In this document: positions 1,584-15,557 of the stretch, piece after piece
Layout: the number at the start of each line of letters is the position of its first letter
Numbering within the stretch: the stretch's first letter is position 1
NCBI GenBank assembly: GCA_019306065.1
Contig: JAFDMF010000001.1
Span: forward strand, 1 to 64,000
Direction: 5' to 3'
Source: Deltaproteobacteria bacterium
GTDB lineage: Bacteria; Desulfobacterota; Desulfobacteria; Desulfobacterales; JAFDMD01
DNA length: 64,000 nucleotides
Program-made: the position numbers and the translations under genes
The notes under the pieces: model-generated
What the model saw: only the letters and a program-made list of their open reading frames with translations
Databases searched by the model: none
Told to the model about the DNA's origin: nothing

Positions 1584-4129
1584 TCATAATTTATCCGAAA
1601 TAAAATAGGGACCGGAAAATATTTTAATTAGATCGGAAAAGCTTTTAATATGTTCCGATTTTTTTTCCCAATCTTCCTGTTTTATATATAAAGGGGTATA
1701 GGTATATTCGGTTTGGGCGGCATTTATATCTTTGCTCCATTCCGCCAAACGTTTTATTTTGCAAATATCTTCGGTTCCTTCTCTGCCTTTGGTTTCTATA
1801 ACAAAAAAGGTATTATGATTCTGTTTTACAAAAAAGTCGGGATAATATTCTCTTATATTTCCGTCTTGCGCCTGATACTCTATTTTAAAATTAACGCCTC
1901 TGTCTCCGCGGGTATTTTTTGCATAGGATATAATATCGGTAAAGCGGTTTTCCAAAGCTGCCGCAAATGTTAACTCGAAATTATTATCGCAAACGATTTT
2001 ATTAAAAACAGATTTTTCGGATATAAGATAGGGCTGATTTTCTACAACTTGGGGCTTTGTATCTTTTAAGGAGAGGTATTTTTTAATTTCCGCAAATCCT
2101 TTGTCCGTAATTGTTAGATTATCGATCGCTTTTTTAAAGGTTGTAAATATAATATTTTTTGTTTCGGCTTCGGATAGGTTGCGTAATGTTTGCGGATTGC
2201 TTAATTGAACTTCTTTTGTAAAAAGCCGGTCTTTTACAAAGCTTTTCACTTTAGGATATAATATGTTAAAACCGCTTCGTAATAATCGGCTTTCGTTTAA
2301 AATGCCGGAAGTAAAAAAGCCTATAACGTTTCTGTAATCGGAAATTGTAGTTTTAAAAACTGTTTTATGAGAAAACTCGCCGTTTATATGAGAAAAGATT
2401 ATTTCTTTTAACTGCCGTTCCTCAAATGTTTTAAAAACCGCTTTTTTATTTTTAAATTCGCCTATGTTTATTAATTCCAAATTTTTATATTCCCGATAAA
2501 TTCGCGGGCTCATTTGCGGAATTAAAATGTCTAATTCGTCTAAATTTTTATTTTTATTTTCTTGATCAACTTCTATGATTATCGGGTTTTTACTTCTTTG
2601 CGTAAAACTTATGGGGCTGTACTCAAATTCTACTCCTTCGGTTTTTAATTCTTCTACAAACTCTAAAAACGGGGTGGTTCCTATTACAACTAATTTTTCG
2701 GGCGCTTTCAAAGAAAACATTTTGCGTAATCCGCGCCCTATTGTTTGTTCTGGCAATATTTTAGACTTAGCTTGAAATGGTCTTAATCCTACGACTGTTG
2801 TTACGTTTTTAACATCCCATCCTTCCCTAAGCATTAAAACCGAGACTACGGCTTTGTATAAAGAGTTGTCTTTATCTAACTCGTCTGCGGCTTTGCGAAG
2901 TTTTTCCAACTCTTGCTTATCTCTTTTGCCTTTTGCCGTTTCTTTTATTTCGCCGGATTTGTTGGTGTGTATTGTCAAAACCTCTAAAAACTCCGCCGCT
3001 TGATCTGCCTCTTTGGTGTTGGTTGTCATTATAAAAAGTATGGGGGTTTTACAATTTTTAAATTCTTTATACTGTTTTTCCCATTCCAAATATCCCAAAC
3101 GAATATAATCTTGGTATCGCTCTATAAAATCAACGGAATCTTTTTCAACTATTTCTTTTCGGGATGCTTCGTCCGGCAAAACCGGAGACTTTACAACTTT
3201 TTGTTGTATGGCTTCTACAAGCGGATAATCGGATATTGTCTGAACAAATATTGCTCCGCTTTAAACCATGCAAGCTTTTTATCATGTATATGATGAGCTT
3301 CGTCGTTAAATATAACAAGGTCTTTTATTTTATCGCTTCGTAAAACTTTACCCAAATCCAAACCTTTTGAAGTGTCTGCATCAGGTTTTGGTTTTGCGCC
3401 TAAAAAAAGGGTTTCCAAAGTTTCTTCCGGCTCTTCATTCAAAAAAACTCTGTGAATATTAGTTAAAAATATGTTTCCGGATTCCGCAATCGGTTTTAAA
3501 GCGTCTTGAATATGTAAGGTTAATTGAAAATCATTTTTCCAGTCTTTATTATCAAAACCGTTTTCTGGAATAAACGGCTCTTGAAAAAACATTTTAAGCC
3601 TGTCAAAGTCTTTGCGTAATCTGTTTAAAACAATAATATTAGGCGCGACTATTAAAAAGTTTTTAGATAATTCGCAGTCTGTTTCGTAAAACTTGTTAAA
3701 ATAGGACCAAACTAACGCCAAGCCTATTACTTTGGTTTTACCCGTGCCTGTAGCCATTTTTACTACATACCGAGTCCATGTTTCGTCAAACATTTGCGCG
3801 CTTACTTGCTCGGAAGGATCAAAACGCATTAAATCGTATTTATCTTTTGCCTTTGCAACCTCATATAAATAAATTATGGATTCAATCGCCTCGCGCTGCG
3901 AAAAGAAAAAACGGAATCTGTTTTGTCCAATAAAATGCTCCTGTTCAAACCAAAATTTCATTAAAGATGCGGAAGTATCCGAAACGCCGGAATAGCCGTC
4001 ATCTCTCCACTTCTCAACCGCAATGCGAATTTTGCCAACTAAAGGCGGAAGCAGTTCGGCTGTTTTATCCGACGCAGGCATCCAACGTTGGTTCGGGGTA
4101 AGTATTTTAAAAGGATCCGAATTTTTCAT
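1584..4129 (-). pseudogene. res: Type III restriction enzyme Res subunit (DEAD/DEAH helicase-nuclease), frameshifted
   Basis: Two frames together make one Res protein. The upstream part (4129 to 3215, 304 residues) has Walker A ATGTGKT at about 126-132 and the DEAH box (IFNDEAHH) near 276, then runs out of frame and stops. The downstream part is readable from about 3250 in the other frame (GAIFVQTISDYPLVEAI) and continues to 1584. It has helicase motif VI (EQTIGRGLRK) and a C-terminal PD-(D/E)xK nuclease signature (YYPDFFVK, then IETKG). The block between LAWFK and GAIFVQ, which normally holds helicase motif III (TATP-type), is absent, and the junction shifts frame. A further short open stretch (about 4199 to 4115, starting MAKVKPAPVLERA) may be a displaced N-terminus. 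The enzyme is almost certainly inactive. Confidence 0.82.
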
Positions 4130-7254: not shown

Positions 7255-7352
7255 TGGCGGAAGCGCATGGGAATCGAACCCACCCGGGACGGTATTAATG
7301 CCCCACACCGGATTTGAAGTCCGGGAGCCCCGCCAGAGAGCTGGGCGCTTCC
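7255..7352 (-). tRNA. selC: Selenocysteine tRNA, anticodon TCA, CCA encoded
   Basis: Read on the minus strand from 7352, the RNA opens with GGAAGCGC and closes with GCGCTTCC, an 8-bp acceptor stem characteristic of bacterial tRNA-Sec. The anticodon loop is CTTCAAA with anticodon TCA (reads UGA). There is a long extra arm (TGTGGGGC ... GTCCCGGG), and the T loop is GGTTCGATTCC. The body is 95 nt (7258-7352), with discriminator G at 7258 and CCA encoded at 7257-7255. This shows that the organism decodes UGA as selenocysteine, so in-frame TGA codons elsewhere in the genome deserve care. No selA, selB or selD lies in the window. Confidence 0.95.
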
Positions 7353-7367: not shown

Positions 7368-8279
7368 TTATTGTTGCTTATCCGTAGAAACTTTAAGATT
7401 TACCCCTATCTGATCCAAAAAGAGTTCCTTAACCCATTCAGGCGGCCTTTTGTTTTCCCATACGCAGGTTTTTATATATTTTTTGCATATATTAGGATAT
7501 TTTACAAAAGGAGAAAAAGAGCCTTTAAGTTCGCCTACGTTCCATTTTTTATAATAATCGACTGCTTTTTTGTCTCCGTAATTTTCAAAAAAACGGATTC
7601 TTTTATTTAAATTAAACTCTCCGAGATAAACAAAATCAATTATCGAAGTAGCCATTGTATCGAACAAAAATTTATCATTATTTGTAAGGGCGTTTGTAAC
7701 TTCTATGGCAAAATCTCCGATCAAAATCATTTTTTTATCTGCGACAGATAAGCTTTCATAATATATTTTGGGTCTTTTGGCAATATTAAACCACCCTGGC
7801 AATATTTCCAGCGCTTTTTTGTAGTTATAATCGGGCCAAACTTGGGATATTATATTTTCTATAATTTTTGTATCTATTATTCCCTGCTCTTCGTCTTCAC
7901 CTATAATAACAGGTTCTATTATTCCTTGTTTTGCCTCTTCTATTATTTTCAACTGAAATACCGGATAATTTTTTTCATTATAATTTATTTCGCCGTAATC
8001 TATAAAAGAGAGTATATCTGCAAAGGCATCTTGCGGTATTCCAAAGACAAAATCGTCTTCATTTGATTTTCCTGCGCCTTGTTTATATATTAATATCATT
8101 TTTTTATCATTGGAAAACCGCGCGGGAGTTATAAGAAAAGAGGGTCTTATAAGACCTCCCGAAAACGTGTTTTCGCCGCTTAAAAGGATTTCTCTGTTTA
8201 CCGAGGATATTATAAGGTTGCATATAATCAGAAGAAATAATATCAAAAGAATCATTAAAATTGATACGCGCTCGTTCAC
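7368..8279 (-). CDS. Tandem ExbD/MotB-like membrane protein B, without the channel aspartate
   Basis: A 303-residue protein with one N-terminal membrane segment (about residues 6-27, ILMILLILFLLIICNLI) and a large periplasmic part. It is a clear paralogue of the preceding gene: both share ENTF.GG, FIDYGEI, KRPKIYYESL, a FDTxAT stretch, YYKKW and a WVKxLFLDxIGVxLK ending. The start is GTG at 8279 inside a GTGA overlap with the stop of the upstream paralogue, preceded by GGAGG, so translation is coupled. Unlike its paralogue, the membrane segment has no aspartate, so it probably cannot carry protons itself. No OmpA-type peptidoglycan-binding domain is visible. The function is not known. Confidence 0.72.
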   Translation of the reverse strand: MNERVSILMILLILFLLIICNLIISSVNREILLSGENTFSGGLIRPSFLITPARFSNDKKMILIYKQGAGKSNEDDFVFGIPQDAFADILSFIDYGEINYNEKNYPVFQLKIIEEAKQGIIEPVIIGEDEEQGIIDTKIIENIISQVWPDYNYKKALEILPGWFNIAKRPKIYYESLSVADKKMILIGDFAIEVTNALTNNDKFLFDTMATSIIDFVYLGEFNLNKRIRFFENYGDKKAVDYYKKWNVGELKGSFSPFVKYPNICKKYIKTCVWENKRPPEWVKELFLDQIGVNLKVSTDKQQ

Positions 8280-9235
8280 CTGCCGCTAACCTCCGCTTCT
8301 ATATTTCCGTTTCTTGAGCCTATGATTTTAAGCTTTACCCCGATTCTATCAAGAAATAATCCTTTAACCCATACCGGAAGTTTTTCATTGTTTAAAACGC
8401 GGGCTTTAATATATTCTATTCTAGGTCTGTTATACTTTGCCAACGGCGAAAGCATGTCTCCAGGATTTTCGCGCCATTTTTTATAATAAGCCAATGCTTT
8501 GTCTGTTCCGTATTTTTCTAAAAAACGGAGTCTTTCTTCACTATCGAATTTACCGAGATAAACAAAATCCATCATTTCGGTGGCAAGAGTGTCGAATATG
8601 AATTTGTAATAAGAAGATATTCCAGCAGTTACGTCTATAATTATGTTTCCTATTACGATCATTTTATGACCGTTATTTTCCAAACTTTCATAATATATTT
8701 TGGGTCTTTTATTGATTTTAAATGAGCCGAACAGATTTTCGGGCAATTCTTCGATGTTATAATCGGGCCAAATATCTTTAAGGATATCTGTTAAGATTTT
8801 TTTATCTATTTTGCCGTTATTTCCTTCTTCATTTATAATTACCTTGTTGGTTATGTTTTGATTATCTTCGGATAGTTTTATATTAAAAACCGGATAATGC
8901 TTGTTTTCCAGTATAATTTCGCCGTAATCTATAAAGCCTATCAACCCTGCGAAGCCTTCGGCTGTCAAACCGAATAATGAAGCGTCCGATCTGATATCAT
9001 CTTCTCCGTGTTTATATATGTAAATTATATTTTTATCTGAGAAACGAATCGGCGATATTGAAAAACCTGGCATTGTCATGCCTCCTACAAAGGTATTTTC
9101 TTTACTTGAAAATTCAACTGTTAAAACGCTGAATGTAAATCTTACGATAACAAGAAGAAATATTAATAAAAGTATGGTTAAAAGATCAACTAAAGTATCG
9201 CCTATTTCGTCGTCTACATATAAAGGTAATCTCAT
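8276..9235 (-). CDS. ExbD/MotB-like membrane protein A, with a channel-type aspartate
   Basis: A 319-residue protein. Residues 11-36 read DEIGDTLVDLLTILLLIFLL, matching the ExbD/TolR/MotB layout in which an aspartate at the mouth of the single transmembrane helix carries protons. The rest is a unique periplasmic domain with no recognised fold, duplicated in the next gene. It follows a TolQ/MotA-like gene by 28 bp, the usual partner order. Unlike MotB or TolR it lacks an evident OmpA-like or TolR C-terminal domain. The call rests on the membrane segment and the gene context; the role is unknown. Confidence 0.72.
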   Translation of the reverse strand: MRLPLYVDDEIGDTLVDLLTILLLIFLLVIVRFTFSVLTVEFSSKENTFVGGMTMPGFSISPIRFSDKNIIYIYKHGEDDIRSDASLFGLTAEGFAGLIGFIDYGEIILENKHYPVFNIKLSEDNQNITNKVIINEEGNNGKIDKKILTDILKDIWPDYNIEELPENLFGSFKINKRPKIYYESLENNGHKMIVIGNIIIDVTAGISSYYKFIFDTLATEMMDFVYLGKFDSEERLRFLEKYGTDKALAYYKKWRENPGDMLSPLAKYNRPRIEYIKARVLNNEKLPVWVKGLFLDRIGVKLKIIGSRNGNIEAEVSGR

Positions 9236-9263: not shown

Positions 9264-10253
9264 TTATTCGGAAGTTTTTTTTATTCTACCGCTTATTACA
9301 TCGGATTTATTTGAAAATATCGGGTTTATTTTTTCTACGCTTTTATGAAGCTTATATATGTCTTTAAAAAAATGCTTTAATGTGCCGGAAAGGGATTCTA
9401 CTTTTACCACTGCATGCTCTGCCGTACCTGCAATTTCGGATGAAACGGCATTTAAATTTTTTGAAAGGGATTCAAATGTCGAGAATAATTTTCTGGCATT
9501 GTTATTCATAATATTAACATTATCATTCATAACCCCGAATAATTTCTGAAAAGCCTCATGCTGTAATAAGAGGTCTTTATACTCCTGATCATAAGCGCGG
9601 CTACGATGCTTGGCATGTATTTTAATTAATTTCAACCTCATTTGCGAAACACTCTTAGACAACAGGTTGTTATGAAGTATTAAATTGATTCTTAACGAAA
9701 TTCCGCCCCCGAACGCTCCGAAAAGGGTGGTATAAAAAGCGGTGTCAACGCCGCTTAATATGTTATTCATTTCATTTAAAAGCGTAGCGGCATTACCGTT
9801 TCCCGAAGTAGCCATTGCTCCTCTTAACCCGGACATTGCAATAATTAAGCCGAATACCGTGCCAAGAAAACCAGACGTAATTAAAATGTTGGACAATGAC
9901 ACTATCATGTTTAAATATCTTCCTACCTTGCTTTCATATATTTTTATATATTCTTTCAGTATATTCAAATTTGTATCGGCATATTGATTCTTAATTTCAT
10001 CAATTATGCTTTTTCCTACGCCATCTTTTCTATTATCAAAAATAAGAGCGTTATTTTCGTTATATAACAGAGATTGCTGCCTATAAGAAAAGAATAAACC
10101 CAACAAAAATATTAAGGTTATAATAATTAGAAAAATTTGCGAAATGGTATCTAATGCAAAAACGTATTTGATAAATATTAAAATCATAACTGCCAGACTC
10201 ATACCAGAAAATATTGTCCAGCTTATAAATGTTTTGGTCAGCAGCTTTTTCAT
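9264..10253 (-). CDS. MotA/TolQ/ExbB-family proton-channel protein with a long C-terminal tail
   Basis: A 329-residue protein from the ATG at 10253 (AGAGAG upstream), preferred over an upstream TTG. Two N-terminal membrane helices (about 8-30 and 34-55) precede a cytoplasmic loop. Two further helices carry the family signature: LITSGFLGTVFGLIIAMSGL (about 125-145) and GVDTAFYTTLFGAFGGG (about 170-190). The last 110 residues are predicted helical and polar (NVNIMNNNARKLFSTFESL), longer than in TolQ or ExbB and reminiscent of the tails of ZorA-type MotA homologues. It forms an operon with two ExbD-like genes. A 147-bp gap holding a palindrome separates it from the pilus-like genes upstream. Confidence 0.8.
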   Translation of the reverse strand: MKKLLTKTFISWTIFSGMSLAVMILIFIKYVFALDTISQIFLIIITLIFLLGLFFSYRQQSLLYNENNALIFDNRKDGVGKSIIDEIKNQYADTNLNILKEYIKIYESKVGRYLNMIVSLSNILITSGFLGTVFGLIIAMSGLRGAMATSGNGNAATLLNEMNNILSGVDTAFYTTLFGAFGGGISLRINLILHNNLLSKSVSQMRLKLIKIHAKHRSRAYDQEYKDLLLQHEAFQKLFGVMNDNVNIMNNNARKLFSTFESLSKNLNAVSSEIAGTAEHAVVKVESLSGTLKHFFKDIYKLHKSVEKINPIFSNKSDVISGRIKKTSE

Positions 10254-10418: not shown

Positions 10419-11414
10419 TTATAATATTTTTATTAAAAACAAAAAAAATCCTAATAAAAATACGCTTATAATAAAAAATATTACAAGGCTTACTATTGCT
10501 ATTATAAAATTAGTTATTAATTTATTTCCGGCATTATAAAGATCAAGCTCCGAAAGAGCGGCGATATATTGAAAATTTTTACTGTCCATAGCGGTATCGG
10601 ATATATCTGCCGCTATTTTTATTGAGTATGTAGGGAAAAAATCTTTTTTTGTATCTTCAAAAGCTTTATCTAACTGTTTTCCTGAAGTTACGCTATTATA
10701 AACCTCTTTTATGACTATTTGAAAGTAACTTTTTCCGTTTGTACAGGCTATATTAAGAGATTCTTTTAGCTTAATACCATTGGAACAAAGAAGAAATAAT
10801 TTGCGAAAAAATCGGTTTAATAAAAAATATTTTCTAACTTTTGATGCGGAGATATTCCATGAAATAAAAAAATTATCGCAAAAAATAGGGTTGATAACCG
10901 TTACTATTAGTAAAAATGCTAAAATTATTATACCTCCGTTAAATAATAAAGGCAGAATTTTCTTTATATTAGTTAAGATAAATGTAATCTTTTCGTTTAT
11001 CAACTCCGGCAAATATTGGCCGATATTAGGAATTATATTATAAAGCAAGGCGTTAAATCCGCTATAAGCCGCAGTTATAATAGCTCCGATCAAAAAAAAA
11101 AGAAGTGTGATTCGAAATAAAAGAATAGCCGTTTTATTTTTAAAATTTTTTAAATTATAAAGTGTATGCCTTAAATCCTTTTCGGTTGTGGCTGCGGAAA
11201 TAAGAGTATCTTCGACATCTGATAGAATAAATTCTTTTTTTACCGCTGAATAAAAAGACCTACCTTCCGAAATAGCGGACGCTACGGCTATTTCTTTGTG
11301 TGCGGGCTTATTATTTTTATCTAAAATATATACGGCTATTTTGTTTATTGAAAATTCCGCATTCAGTAATATCAGAATTTTTTCAAAAAATATCTCTTTT
11401 TCTCTGATCAGCAT
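10419..11414 (-). CDS. GspF/PilC/PilR-like inner-membrane platform protein
   Basis: A 331-residue polytopic protein with the two-fold repeat layout of type II secretion and type IV pilus platform proteins. A soluble helical domain (1-95) is followed by two membrane helices (about 100-120 and 160-185), a second soluble repeat (about 195-285, FFRKLFLLCSNGIKLKESL and GKQLDKAF) and a C-terminal membrane helix (305-328). In characterised systems this protein couples the assembly ATPase to the growing (pseudo)pilus. No such ATPase gene lies in the window. It is the last gene of the secretin operon, 18 bp from its neighbour. Confidence 0.78.
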   Translation of the reverse strand: MLIREKEIFFEKILILLNAEFSINKIAVYILDKNNKPAHKEIAVASAISEGRSFYSAVKKEFILSDVEDTLISAATTEKDLRHTLYNLKNFKNKTAILLFRITLLFFLIGAIITAAYSGFNALLYNIIPNIGQYLPELINEKITFILTNIKKILPLLFNGGIIILAFLLIVTVINPIFCDNFFISWNISASKVRKYFLLNRFFRKLFLLCSNGIKLKESLNIACTNGKSYFQIVIKEVYNSVTSGKQLDKAFEDTKKDFFPTYSIKIAADISDTAMDSKNFQYIAALSELDLYNAGNKLITNFIIAIVSLVIFFIISVFLLGFFLFLIKIL

Positions 11415-11432
11415 AAAATTTTACCGTAATCT

Positions 11433-12074
11433 CTATTGTTTTGATTTTCCAAATTTTTTCGGTACATTTGCTCCATAGCCTAAATAGATACTCTCGGGCG
11501 CCATCCCCTCTTTTTTCACAATAATGTGATTTTCTTTTACTTCCAAAAGCGTATAGCCTGAAATATTATCTCCTTCTTTTACTACTCGGTTTGTATTGTT
11601 TACAACAATTACGGCTTTCTTTTTTAAATAATTTATTGCAAACACTCTGATAAAACCGGAAGCGGACGTTTTGGGAATAACCTTTTTTATTAACGGTTTG
11701 CTTTTGGTTTTAATAGGTTCTCGCTTTTTCGGTTCGTTTGCCGAAGATAAGCTTTCAATATCTCTTCTAAGCTCCGCTATCATCTTCTTTTTTTTAAGAT
11801 CTATTATTTCGCTTAAGAAAGCCTCGTCTTCTTGAAACTGCTCTTTTGTAGCTTCTTCGATTTTCTTTTTTATCAGTCCTTTTTCAATGTCTCTAATGTC
11901 CTCTATACCGGACCGGACATCTTCTATGTTTTGCTGCATCGCTTCTACGTTTTTTAAAAGAATGTCATCTTCTTTCGGCTTTAAAGCGTAACGGGCAAAA
12001 TATAAAATAGTAGATATTACAAGAAGCAGTATTGATAATATTATTATATCTTTTCTACTAAATTTATATTTCAT
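11433..12074 (-). CDS. PilP/GspC-like inner-membrane protein
   Basis: A 213-residue protein with one N-terminal membrane helix (10-27), a Lys/Glu-rich coiled coil (about 35-115), a Pro/Lys linker and a C-terminal small beta domain (about 135-200). The C-terminal pattern RVVKEGDNISGYTLLEV followed by IIVKKEG matches the homology-region style of PilP and GspC proteins, which link the inner-membrane platform to the secretin. The start overlaps the previous stop (ATGA at 12071-12074). Assignment rests on domain layout and position; sequence identity to known PilP is low by eye. Confidence 0.6.
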   Translation of the reverse strand: MKYKFSRKDIIILSILLLVISTILYFARYALKPKEDDILLKNVEAMQQNIEDVRSGIEDIRDIEKGLIKKKIEEATKEQFQEDEAFLSEIIDLKKKKMIAELRRDIESLSSANEPKKREPIKTKSKPLIKKVIPKTSASGFIRVFAINYLKKKAVIVVNNTNRVVKEGDNISGYTLLEVKENHIIVKKEGMAPESIYLGYGANVPKKFGKSKQ

Positions 12075-12535
12075 TTTTTACCATACATCCTTGCATTAAT
12101 TACGGCTCCTTTTGTTTCCCCTTCCATGGAATGAATTAATAAAAAATTTTGAAAATTATTTAAAAGCATTTTTATCGTATATATTTGCTCAAAAATATCG
12201 CCATTAATAATTATGGTAATATCTTTATATTTTCCCATATAATCGGTAACAGTTGTTTTAACATCTTTATCTTCGCCGGTATAAGTTATTTGTAATTTAC
12301 CCAAACCTATTTTTTTTATGGAATAGAGTTTTTCTATATTTGCATCTAAATAATCTAAAGAAGATTCGGAAAGCGGAATAAGCTCGTTATAAACTTTTAT
12401 ATCATTAAGAGGAATAGCAAGGCTTATATCCGAAATGTCATTTCCGATTCTGAAATTATCTATCCCCTCACAAAATAAAAAAAAAGCCGCAATAATTAAT
12501 ATAGCGGATGTAAATGTTTTTATTATATCTTTCAA
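12071..12535 (-). CDS. PilO/GspM-like small inner-membrane protein
   Basis: A 154-residue protein with one N-terminal membrane helix (8-23), a short periplasmic coil and a ferredoxin-like alpha/beta pattern (KLQITYTG ... DITIIINGDIFEQIYTIK ... LLIHSMEG). That is the usual architecture of PilO, PilN and GspM/GspL periplasmic domains. It sits between the secretin and the platform protein, where these subunits are found. The specific subunit identity is inferred only from size, topology and order. Confidence 0.5.
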   Translation of the reverse strand: MKDIIKTFTSAILIIAAFFLFCEGIDNFRIGNDISDISLAIPLNDIKVYNELIPLSESSLDYLDANIEKLYSIKKIGLGKLQITYTGEDKDVKTTVTDYMGKYKDITIIINGDIFEQIYTIKMLLNNFQNFLLIHSMEGETKGAVINARMYGKK

Positions 12536-12545
12536 TTCCGAAAAC

Positions 12546-12956
12546 CTAAAAAAAACGTATGAAATATTTGGAACCGTCTATTCTTATTTCGCCATATCTT
12601 ATAAGTTTTTCCAGCATAGCCATATCGTCTTCGCCGGTTGTTTCCAGTTCAAGCAAGCCGTTATATTTATATCTATATTTTTTTATTCCGCTATACGGCA
12701 AATTTAAAGCGGTTCTTAAAATTGTTCTATAAACCAATAAAGAAATATTGTTGCTTGCAATTACGCTTCCGGCTTTTCTAGCGACCTCATTTTCAAAATC
12801 GCGATAAAAAATTCTTGCTTTTTCATAATGTTGTTCTGCCAGTTTTTCTTTTGAATTTTTTATAATCAACCCGATGCTAAACAGTATCAATGAGAATAAA
12901 AATAAAGCTATCGAAAAATAAAAAAAAAATGAAACTCTGTTTTGAGATTTTACCAT
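12546..12956 (-). CDS. Small single-pass membrane protein of the secretin operon
   Basis: A 136-residue protein with a strongly hydrophobic helix at residues 9-32 and a Lys/Arg-rich periplasmic domain ending in DGSKYFIRFF. No family is recognised. It overlaps the secretin stop by 7 bp and precedes the PilO-like gene by 10 bp, so it is very probably part of the same assembly machine, perhaps as a GspL/PilN-like or MshJ-like subunit. It is distinct enough that function should not be asserted. Confidence 0.5.
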   Translation of the reverse strand: MVKSQNRVSFFFYFSIALFLFSLILFSIGLIIKNSKEKLAEQHYEKARIFYRDFENEVARKAGSVIASNNISLLVYRTILRTALNLPYSGIKKYRYKYNGLLELETTGEDDMAMLEKLIRYGEIRIDGSKYFIRFF

Positions 12957-14683
12957 GAAACTTCTACCATTATAGCCACTTCGGAAATCTTTTTATGAGT
13001 CGATTTATATTGGAAGGGGATACCGAGTATCGGAATATCTCCCACAAACGGCACTCTTTTATCTGTTTTTATTTCCTCTTCCGCCATTAATCCGCTGATT
13101 AAAATTGTGCTTCCGTTTTTGACGTTAACAACTGTCTGTGTCTGTTTCAAACTAAGGCTCGGAGCTTCTACGGTAGCATTATCTCCTGCCTGAATGGTTC
13201 GCTGTTCTTGTAAAGCGGTTATTTCCGGAGATATATAAACAAGAGCCTCTTCGTCGGATATTATTCTGGGAAGCACATAAAAGCTTAAACCTGTTTGAAG
13301 CGGTTTTACTATAATGGAAGTGGTAACCGCATCCGAAACGGTTTTGGAGGAATATGACTGAGCTACATAAGACAAGGTTTGACCTACTATAAGCGAGCCT
13401 ATGGCGCCGTTTAAAACCGTTAAAGAGGGTTTGCTTATAACTTTTACGTCGCCGTATTCTTCTAATGCTCTTATATATGAATTAAGAGCGCCAGCGGCAA
13501 ATGAAGCCGATATTGCTATGGTATTACTCGCTATACTTGAAAAACCGCCGGCGGAACCGGTTAAACTTTTGTCGCCGCTAAGCACTTTAAAAAAACCGCC
13601 GTTTAATGCCGTAGAGCTCAATGCCTTATCCCAGTCTATACCATGCTCGTGCGCTTTATTTAATGTAACCTCCGTAATTATACCTTTTACATTTACCGGA
13701 ATTCTCAGTCTTTTATTAAGCTTTGCTATAAATTCGCCTATTCTGTCAACGACGTCTCCTCTGTCTCGTATCCATATAGTGCCTGTTTCTTTATGAATTG
13801 CAAATTTACCGGTTTCGGTTAAAAACGGTTTTATGGTCTCCGAAAGGCTTTCGACCGTAGAGGTTTTTCCGAAAGCCATTGCAGTGCTAAGTGCCGAAGA
13901 CATACCACCGTCCGAATAACTGTTTGTGCTTGCGGAAGAAGAAACTGTTCCGCTGCCTCCGACAGTATTGCCGATGCGTGAAGAAGTGATTTCAAAAGAT
14001 TGAGACATTAAAGGAAAGAATATATCAAACAGAGCCTCTTTTTCTTTATAGATATAATAAACTCCATCTTTTTTTTCCCAAAAAAGTTTAATCTGCGCAA
14101 GAAGTCTGTCTAAAGCTATACTAAGAGGAATTTCGTCAAAATCTGCCGTAACGATAGTATTTAATTCATCCTCCGCTCCGTCTTTTAAGGAATAATTATA
14201 GCCGCTTAACATAGCGGTTACAACTAGCCCGAAGGGCTGATTATACGCCATAAATGTAATAACAGGCTGTTTTATAATAATAATACTGTTATTCGATCTT
14301 TTAACATATCCAAGCCCTTTGGGTTTAAGAATTCTTGTTAAAATTTCGCTAACGGTTTTTTTTTCTGCATTTAAAGTGATAGGAATATTGATTGGAACGC
14401 CTTCCTCAAATTCAAAATTTTTTATGAGCTGGCGAATTACTCTTGAAAGAGGCTCTTTGTAAAAAGAGACCTTAACTTTTTTTTCAAAAACATTATGTTC
14501 TATATCCGAATGTTCTATATCCGATTGTGCAGACGTAAGCGCGGTTTTATAAATATCAGCCTGTTTTTTTATCTCGGAAAATTGTTCTATATTAATCTCA
14601 TTTTTCCCCCCATCAGTAACGCAGCCTCCAACAAAACAAAATGATACTACAGACATCAATATGAAAAAAAATTTTCTACTCAT
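12950..14683 (-). CDS. Outer-membrane secretin lipoprotein (PilN/MshL-like)
   Basis: About 577 residues from the ATG at 14683, placed 8 bases after a GGTGGGAG ribosome site; the GTG further upstream is less likely. A lipoprotein signal ends SFCFVGGC. Residues about 70-140 form a secretin/TonB short N-terminal-like domain (VIRQLIKNFEFEEG, SEILTRIL). A Ser/Gly-rich linker precedes an N1-like ring-building domain (IWIRDRGDVVDRIGEFI). The C-terminal third is the beta-barrel secretin domain with the hallmark VPFVGDIPILGIPF followed by VAIMVEV. The lipoprotein type and short gene set resemble type IVb (R64 thin pilus or MSHA) secretins rather than PilQ. It would form a large gated channel in the outer membrane. 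Confidence 0.92.
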   Translation of the reverse strand: MSRKFFFILMSVVSFCFVGGCVTDGGKNEINIEQFSEIKKQADIYKTALTSAQSDIEHSDIEHNVFEKKVKVSFYKEPLSRVIRQLIKNFEFEEGVPINIPITLNAEKKTVSEILTRILKPKGLGYVKRSNNSIIIIKQPVITFMAYNQPFGLVVTAMLSGYNYSLKDGAEDELNTIVTADFDEIPLSIALDRLLAQIKLFWEKKDGVYYIYKEKEALFDIFFPLMSQSFEITSSRIGNTVGGSGTVSSSASTNSYSDGGMSSALSTAMAFGKTSTVESLSETIKPFLTETGKFAIHKETGTIWIRDRGDVVDRIGEFIAKLNKRLRIPVNVKGIITEVTLNKAHEHGIDWDKALSSTALNGGFFKVLSGDKSLTGSAGGFSSIASNTIAISASFAAGALNSYIRALEEYGDVKVISKPSLTVLNGAIGSLIVGQTLSYVAQSYSSKTVSDAVTTSIIVKPLQTGLSFYVLPRIISDEEALVYISPEITALQEQRTIQAGDNATVEAPSLSLKQTQTVVNVKNGSTILISGLMAEEEIKTDKRVPFVGDIPILGIPFQYKSTHKKISEVAIMVEVSW

Positions 14684-15557
14684 GGAATATGCTCCCACCT
14701 ATTTTTTGTAAGTCATTTTCAGAAAAGAACGATAACAAACCGAAATCTATATTAATATTTTTTTTTTTATCTTTCAAAAAGTCATATTCGGTAGCTTTAT
14801 TTATTATAGCTCTATTTACTAATACTCCTGTTTTAATAACGTTTTTTAATTCAATTATAACATAATTATCATCAAACTCGAAAATTTTATTATATACCTT
14901 ATTTTTTTCATTATTATGTAACGTCTTTATTTCGGAAACAATCAAATGATTTTTTTCATTCTCCTGTATATCCATTTCCCAAACTTCAATTCCGACTTTT
15001 TCCGAAGCGGCTTTAAGGCTGGTTTTTAACGCTTGGGCATGAATTTTTTCCGCCAGCTTTTTGCTCGGATTATTTGCCCTGAAAAAAGCCTGAAAAATAT
15101 CGTCAACCGCCATAGGCTCTATTATAAGACGGTAATAATCCTCTTTCATATATCCTTTTATCTTGCCATAAAGTCCCTTCAGTATGGTGTTTGCTTCTAT
15201 AGTATTAATTGCGTTATCTCGTAAAATCGAAATATTTTTTTTTTTTAATATCTCTTTTTTTATCCCAGTTATTATTAAATAATATAAAGTCTCCTTGTTG
15301 GTTTTCTGCGCATTTCCGATTACTTCGCCTATCCAGCCTTCCACTTTGGATAGTTTCCACAAATCTGAATATGTATAACGGATACCGTTATTTCCTATAG
15401 TAACGATGGTTGCATTATAAAAAAAAAATCCCGCTATAGATATTAAAAGGATAGATAATCCTATTATCAAAAAAAACTTTTTGAGAAACCTTATTTTTAA
15501 ATAACCCTTATTAACGTTTTGAGAACTGGTAGCGAGCTCTTGCTCCTTTCTGACCAT
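14676..15557 (-). CDS. Membrane-anchored SurA/PpiD-like protein without an evident isomerase domain
   Basis: A 293-residue protein. A cytoplasmic N-terminus precedes one membrane helix (about 27-48, [20 protein letters not shown]). The periplasmic part is helical and resembles the N-terminal chaperone domain of SurA/PpiD-type proteins ([19 protein letters not shown]), with no clear rotamase motif. The ATG at 15557 lies inside rpsI, 47 bp before its stop, preceded by AGAGAG, so translation may be coupled to ribosomal protein S9. A TTG near 15475 is an alternative. As first gene of the secretin operon it may help a secreted or outer-membrane component fold; this is inference. Confidence 0.6.

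Follow-up and report, generated by a model that had tools for sequence, protein, structure and literature searches.

The window (the whole stretch of DNA analysed, 64,000 nucleotides) carries on its minus strand a MotA/TolQ/ZorA-like gene followed by two tandem paralogous genes, copy A and copy B, for single-helix inner subunits. The helix of copy A carries the aspartate typical of such motors, whereas copy B has a serine at this position. From these sequences we tentatively propose that the three proteins may form a 5:2-type ion-driven inner-membrane motor, in which the inner dimer would be, at least in part, an A/B heterodimer with one carboxylate. The Asp-less second copy thus hints at an asymmetric motor in which only one site, not two, would carry ions. 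The features of the locus are as follows.

9264..10253, minus strand: MotA/TolQ/ZorA-like channel subunit, 329 aa, ATG at 10253, PF01618 match
8276..9235, minus strand: copy A, single-helix inner subunit (DTLVDLLTILLLIFLLVIV), ORF of 319 aa starting with ATG, Asp17 in helix
9179..9196, minus strand: codons of copy A residues 14-19 (TLVDLL), read with position counted from the ATG at 9235
9187-9185, minus strand: GAT codon of copy A Asp17, from the codon read
8276..8279, minus strand: GTGA overlap of the copy A stop (TGA) and the copy B start (GTG), junction sequence identical in 3 species
7368..8279, minus strand: copy B, paralogue of copy A with Ser6 (TCA) at the Asp position, ORF of 303 aa starting with GTG

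The preliminary description of this DNA reported a pair of tandem paralogues, and this was confirmed with exact coordinates. In BLASTP, copies A and B are 49% identical over 266 aligned residues (E=3e-81), so that the duplication cannot be attributed to chance. The overlap between them is limited to the four bases 8276-8279 and suggests, as judged by the sequence, a coupled output of both copies at similar level. No third paralogue was found when the whole genome was searched: only A and B were returned, and a further copy elsewhere in this genome was thus ruled out.

Copy A contains one hydrophobic helix, whose best 19-residue window starts at residue 15 and includes Asp17 (N-terminal helix region GDTLVDLLTILLLIFLLVIV), as had been described. 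Copy B also contains one, with the best window starting at residue 6 and no acidic residue inside (NERVSILMILLILFLLIICN); a second hydrophobic stretch is absent from both. When aligned with the single-copy relatives presented below, Ser6 of copy B falls in the same column as Asp17 of copy A and Asp18/20 of the relatives, which is the position of the MotB/ExbD/ZorB aspartate. The register of this column is secure, since a Phe located 9 residues further is fixed in 8/8 aligned sequences and the Asp-to-Phe spacing is identical in the genome's own ZorB-like protein. It is therefore right to say, as was done previously, that copy B has no acid in its helix, but it would be wrong to say that it has none nearby: a conserved Glu3 lies at the cytoplasmic edge, 3 residues ahead of the site. 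In copy A and the single-copy relatives, an Asp is found 4 residues ahead of the site. Copy B has no cytoplasmic N-terminal segment, with 5 residues preceding the site.

Glu3, about one turn from the site, could in principle take the carboxylate role, in which case an A/B heterodimer would have two sites at different heights. This would agree with the invariance of Glu3 in the three available copy B sequences and with the offset of about half a turn between the inner helices in the solved structures of TolR and ExbD (PMC12215075). However, copy A and the single copies possess a boundary Asp in addition to the helix Asp, and Glu3 most simply matches the former. We consider this possibility improbable.

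The copy B helix resembles that of copy A, with 10/21 identical positions compared to 3.7 in shuffles (p=2e-4). This argues against a drift to a generic anchor, and the helix is still recognisable as a pore helix of this family, although its position inside the pore is not thereby proven.

Outside the membrane, both copies carry a matching periplasmic domain of roughly 270 aa, for which no credible match was obtained in Pfam, NCBIfam, PADLOC, PHROGs (no useful match) or the PDB, where the best hit of a sequence search with the inner-subunit profile, at E 0.012, was not credible. An AlphaFold2 model of copy A built from six sequences was poor (pLDDT 41). With this family, the motor class would gain a periplasmic domain that is apparently undescribed. 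The name 'ExbD-like' initially given to the pair was not supported by profile: PF02472 (ExbD/TolR) matched neither copy at E<=1, and its only hits in the whole genome were the ordinary genes for TolR and ExbD, located on other contigs. When the inner-subunit profile was compared with 29 ExbD/TolR proteins, the helix alone aligned, Asp on Asp, with a probability of 15%; the same was observed with ZorB, with a probability of 4%. The loss of Asp in copy B is unusual, since this residue is present in 30/30 ExbD/TolR proteins sampled from the order (29 with the regular pattern and the thirtieth, PMVDVMLVLL, read directly).

The partner of the pair, described earlier as a TolQ-like channel gene, was identified as such by PF01618 (MotA/TolQ/ExbB), where it exceeds the curated cut-off (32.7 bits vs 22.9, E=7e-8). 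ZorA is its best-scoring PADLOC family (ZorA1, PDLC00597, E=1e-12, residues 87-278), while the score with NCBIfam ZorA_2 (14.9 bits) is far under the 100-bit cut-off. In hhalign, the protein matched the genome's own ZorA-like protein with a probability of 88%, the two threonine-bearing helices being aligned. It carries the TolQ/ExbB-like threonine motifs GTVFG and AFYTTLFG, kept as GT(V/I)FG and AF(Y/F)TTLFG in 5/5 family members. Both motifs are those lining the ion path in TolQ/ExbB/ZorA, and motors of this class have a Ser/Thr ring around the Asp (PMC11890865, PMC12215075). The channel core is followed by a helical cytoplasmic tail of roughly 100 aa. As for copy A, the AlphaFold2 model was poor (pLDDT 48, three sequences), and a PDB fold search with it yielded nothing at E<=0.001, the hits being only generic long helices.

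The genus of the window's genome, and its family, consist of three genomes of three species of uncultured bacteria, all metagenome-assembled. The MotA-like gene, A and B occur in identical order in all three, and the pairing of an Asp-carrying with an Asp-less copy is fixed (3/3 species). Copy A sequences of different species share 83-86% identity. Between-species dN/dS is 0.18-0.22 for copy A and 0.13-0.20 for copy B, and dN lies at 0.06-0.09 in both cases, indicating that both copies are maintained by purifying selection. Decay of copy B, or an assembly error producing the Asp-to-Ser change, would explain why a residue conserved elsewhere is missing, and has no other support. Against it, the site codon is TCA in all three metagenome-assembled genomes, each of a different species, the frame is open throughout and the dN/dS is low; this explanation is extremely unlikely, and a pseudogene was ruled out by the three-species conservation and dN/dS.

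We then looked at the family outside the genus. Among 291 genomes of the class, a profile search retrieved one relative, and a second was obtained by searching the first relative's own family. No further relatives were found among 389 genomes of the order or, for the MotA-like protein, among 389 genomes of the class, none beyond the genus among 395 genomes across the phylum, and none in viral contigs. The motor family is rare and apparently undescribed. Both relatives come from one other family of the same order, each from a genus of its own. Each has a MotA-like gene, then a single inner-subunit gene with Asp (DVMSDLMMVILI), then a gene for a coiled-coil lipoprotein. Their MotA-like proteins, of 668 and 534 aa, are longer, carry a coiled-coil tail and share 35-42% identity with that of the window, and a single-copy inner subunit matches PADLOC ZorB profiles across the helix (E=2e-4). 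The lipoproteins (L017:10492-11953 and L023:1857-2585) have a common N-terminus, EYIK..V..EVKSELK after the lipobox Cys, and are candidate outer-membrane partners of the motor family.

The pairing proposed initially therefore stands for the three species of the genus, but not as a family-wide rule, which is ruled out by the single Asp-carrying copy located behind the MotA-like gene in both relatives. Single-copy homologues with retained gene order had been named beforehand as evidence against the pairing, and the two relatives fit this in part. Copy A, copy B and the single copies form three supported groups in a tree, and A and B (49% identity) are closer to each other than either is to a single copy (38% and 34%, respectively). 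As the tree is unrooted, the order of duplication is not proven. Given the single-copy relatives, a single Asp-carrying gene nevertheless appears ancestral, and in the simplest history the duplication would have occurred in the lineage of the genus, with an Asp-to-Ser change in B specific to the genus.

Since the relatives work with one Asp-carrying gene, the family does not need a heterodimer, and the obligate heterodimer put forward initially is a hypothesis. A copy A homodimer would be a normal two-site motor, and the locus could thus encode an ordinary two-Asp 5:2 machine with copy B as a non-energised accessory that has the periplasmic domain in common with copy A and is anchored beside the pentamer as, for example, a load partner, periplasmic adaptor or scaffold, where it might stand in for the lipoprotein. 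Three observations fit this: single Asp-carrying genes suffice in two relatives; the window's genome yielded no counterpart of their motor-adjacent lipoprotein, in a search that was weak as it had no positive control; and copy B is devoid of the N-terminal cytoplasmic segment, a region where ExbD residues bond to ExbB (PMC12215075). On the other hand, copy B has kept the pore-helix pattern beyond what anchor composition would predict, and its start codon overlaps the stop codon of copy A. We regard an accessory copy B as a plausible but rather less likely arrangement.

For the flagellar, Ton, Tol and Zorya motors, models assume two equivalent sites that swap protonation, which gives 36-degree steps. 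Solved structures of Ton, Tol and Mot motors show the two Asp in unlike environments, one at a threonine and one facing the cytoplasm (PMC12215075), and in current 5:2 models the two sites alternate, swapping protons (PMC9389320). In the heterodimeric motor that we favour, a ring of five MotA-like subunits would enclose the helices of two inner subunits, as can be expected from the homology of the channel core, and the working inner dimer would be mostly A/B, with a 5:1:1 stoichiometry. Copy A would carry the ion past the ring of threonines in the pentamer, while copy B would provide a passive second axle helix and pair with copy A in the periplasm. Two-site alternation would be impossible with A and B together; a single-site cycle would operate instead, one site serving the five ring subunits. 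The load would be periplasmic.

A stalled one-site dimer can also be imagined. Copy B would then act as a brake, A/B or B2 complexes being inactive and B tuning the number of running motors. A site-less helix can still fill the pore, and stalling could follow from the two-site proton-swap 5:2 models (PMC9389320). This is unlikely: overlapping genes would give a fixed rather than an adjustable A:B ratio, and no sign of separate control of copy B was seen at the locus. If the one-site heterodimer is true, it would represent a natural test of the two-equivalent-site assumption, and a clean comparison, because related single-copy motors with a normal Asp exist.

The locus is bordered upstream of the channel gene by a secretin/GspF-like cluster and downstream by a tRNA-Sec gene (7255-7352, minus strand), immediately after copy B. 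The cluster (10419-15557, minus strand), located behind rplM-rpsI, encodes a secretin (nearest MshL), small membrane proteins and PilP/GspC-like and GspF-like proteins; it is type IV pilus or type II secretion-like and includes no recognised pilins or ATPase. A PilB/GspE-like ATPase is encoded elsewhere in this genome, on contig G000:C15. That the motor powers this neighbour is a weak idea, because the ATPase is on another contig and the cluster was not found beside the motors of the two relatives, in the available stretches around them, contigs of 12 kb and 7 kb. Further away, a type III restriction enzyme (Res-like) gene is split into two ORFs in different frames (1584-4129, minus strand) and accompanied by a short Mod-like fragment (1017-1463); these remnants look like a broken restriction system.

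To our knowledge, the inner dimers of MotAB, TolQR and ExbBD are homodimers with two Asp. The window motor shares with these systems a channel core with conserved threonine positions and an inner-helix Asp near its start, but the periplasmic domain of its family is unrelated or unrecognisable. The same genome also contains a TolQR-TolA-like locus, an ExbBD-TonB-like locus and a ZorAB-like pair accompanied by an HNH gene, all separate, and the window motor is therefore a fourth system and not the Ton/Tol machine of the cell. The ZorA-like, ZorB-like and HNH-endonuclease trio (G000:C46:3843-6740, L043) is probably a Zorya type II defence system.

Among 5:2 motors, the anti-phage ZorAB of Zorya offers several likenesses: the window channel subunit scores best with ZorA profiles, the inner helix has the form (S/V)DL(M/L)xxLxxxF as in ZorB, and the cytoplasmic tail of the relatives' channel subunit is long and helical, as in ZorA. 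In contrast to ZorAB, no OmpA-like peptidoglycan-binding domain was recognised in A, B or the single copies by Pfam and PADLOC, no zorC/zorD or zorE, nuclease or helicase gene adjoins the motor, and there are two inner subunits, one without Asp. As judged by sequence comparison, the likeness to ZorAB, MotAB and TolQR is limited to the channel core.

No description of a tandem pair with one Asp-less copy was found in the literature searched, which left out most subscription journals. Tandem inner-subunit genes as such are known. In Xanthomonas campestris and Flavobacterium psychrophilum, iron uptake does not require the ExbD2 of tandem ExbD genes, although another trait does (PMC3551730). These ExbB-ExbD1-ExbD2 loci resemble the locus described here in the tandem arrangement of the genes; nevertheless, they encode Ton-system ExbD, whereas in the window the periplasmic domain is much longer and no TonB gene adjoins the pair. 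In the AglRQS gliding motor of Myxococcus xanthus, a TolQ-like gene is accompanied by two tandem inner-subunit paralogues, which may form hetero- or homodimers; a conserved aspartate was reported in both AglQ and AglS (PMC9389320), and both match PF02472 (PMC3169522). Although the locus described here differs in the absence of Asp from copy B and in the lack of a PF02472 match for either copy, it shares with AglRQS the association of one TolQ-like gene with a tandem pair of inner subunits.
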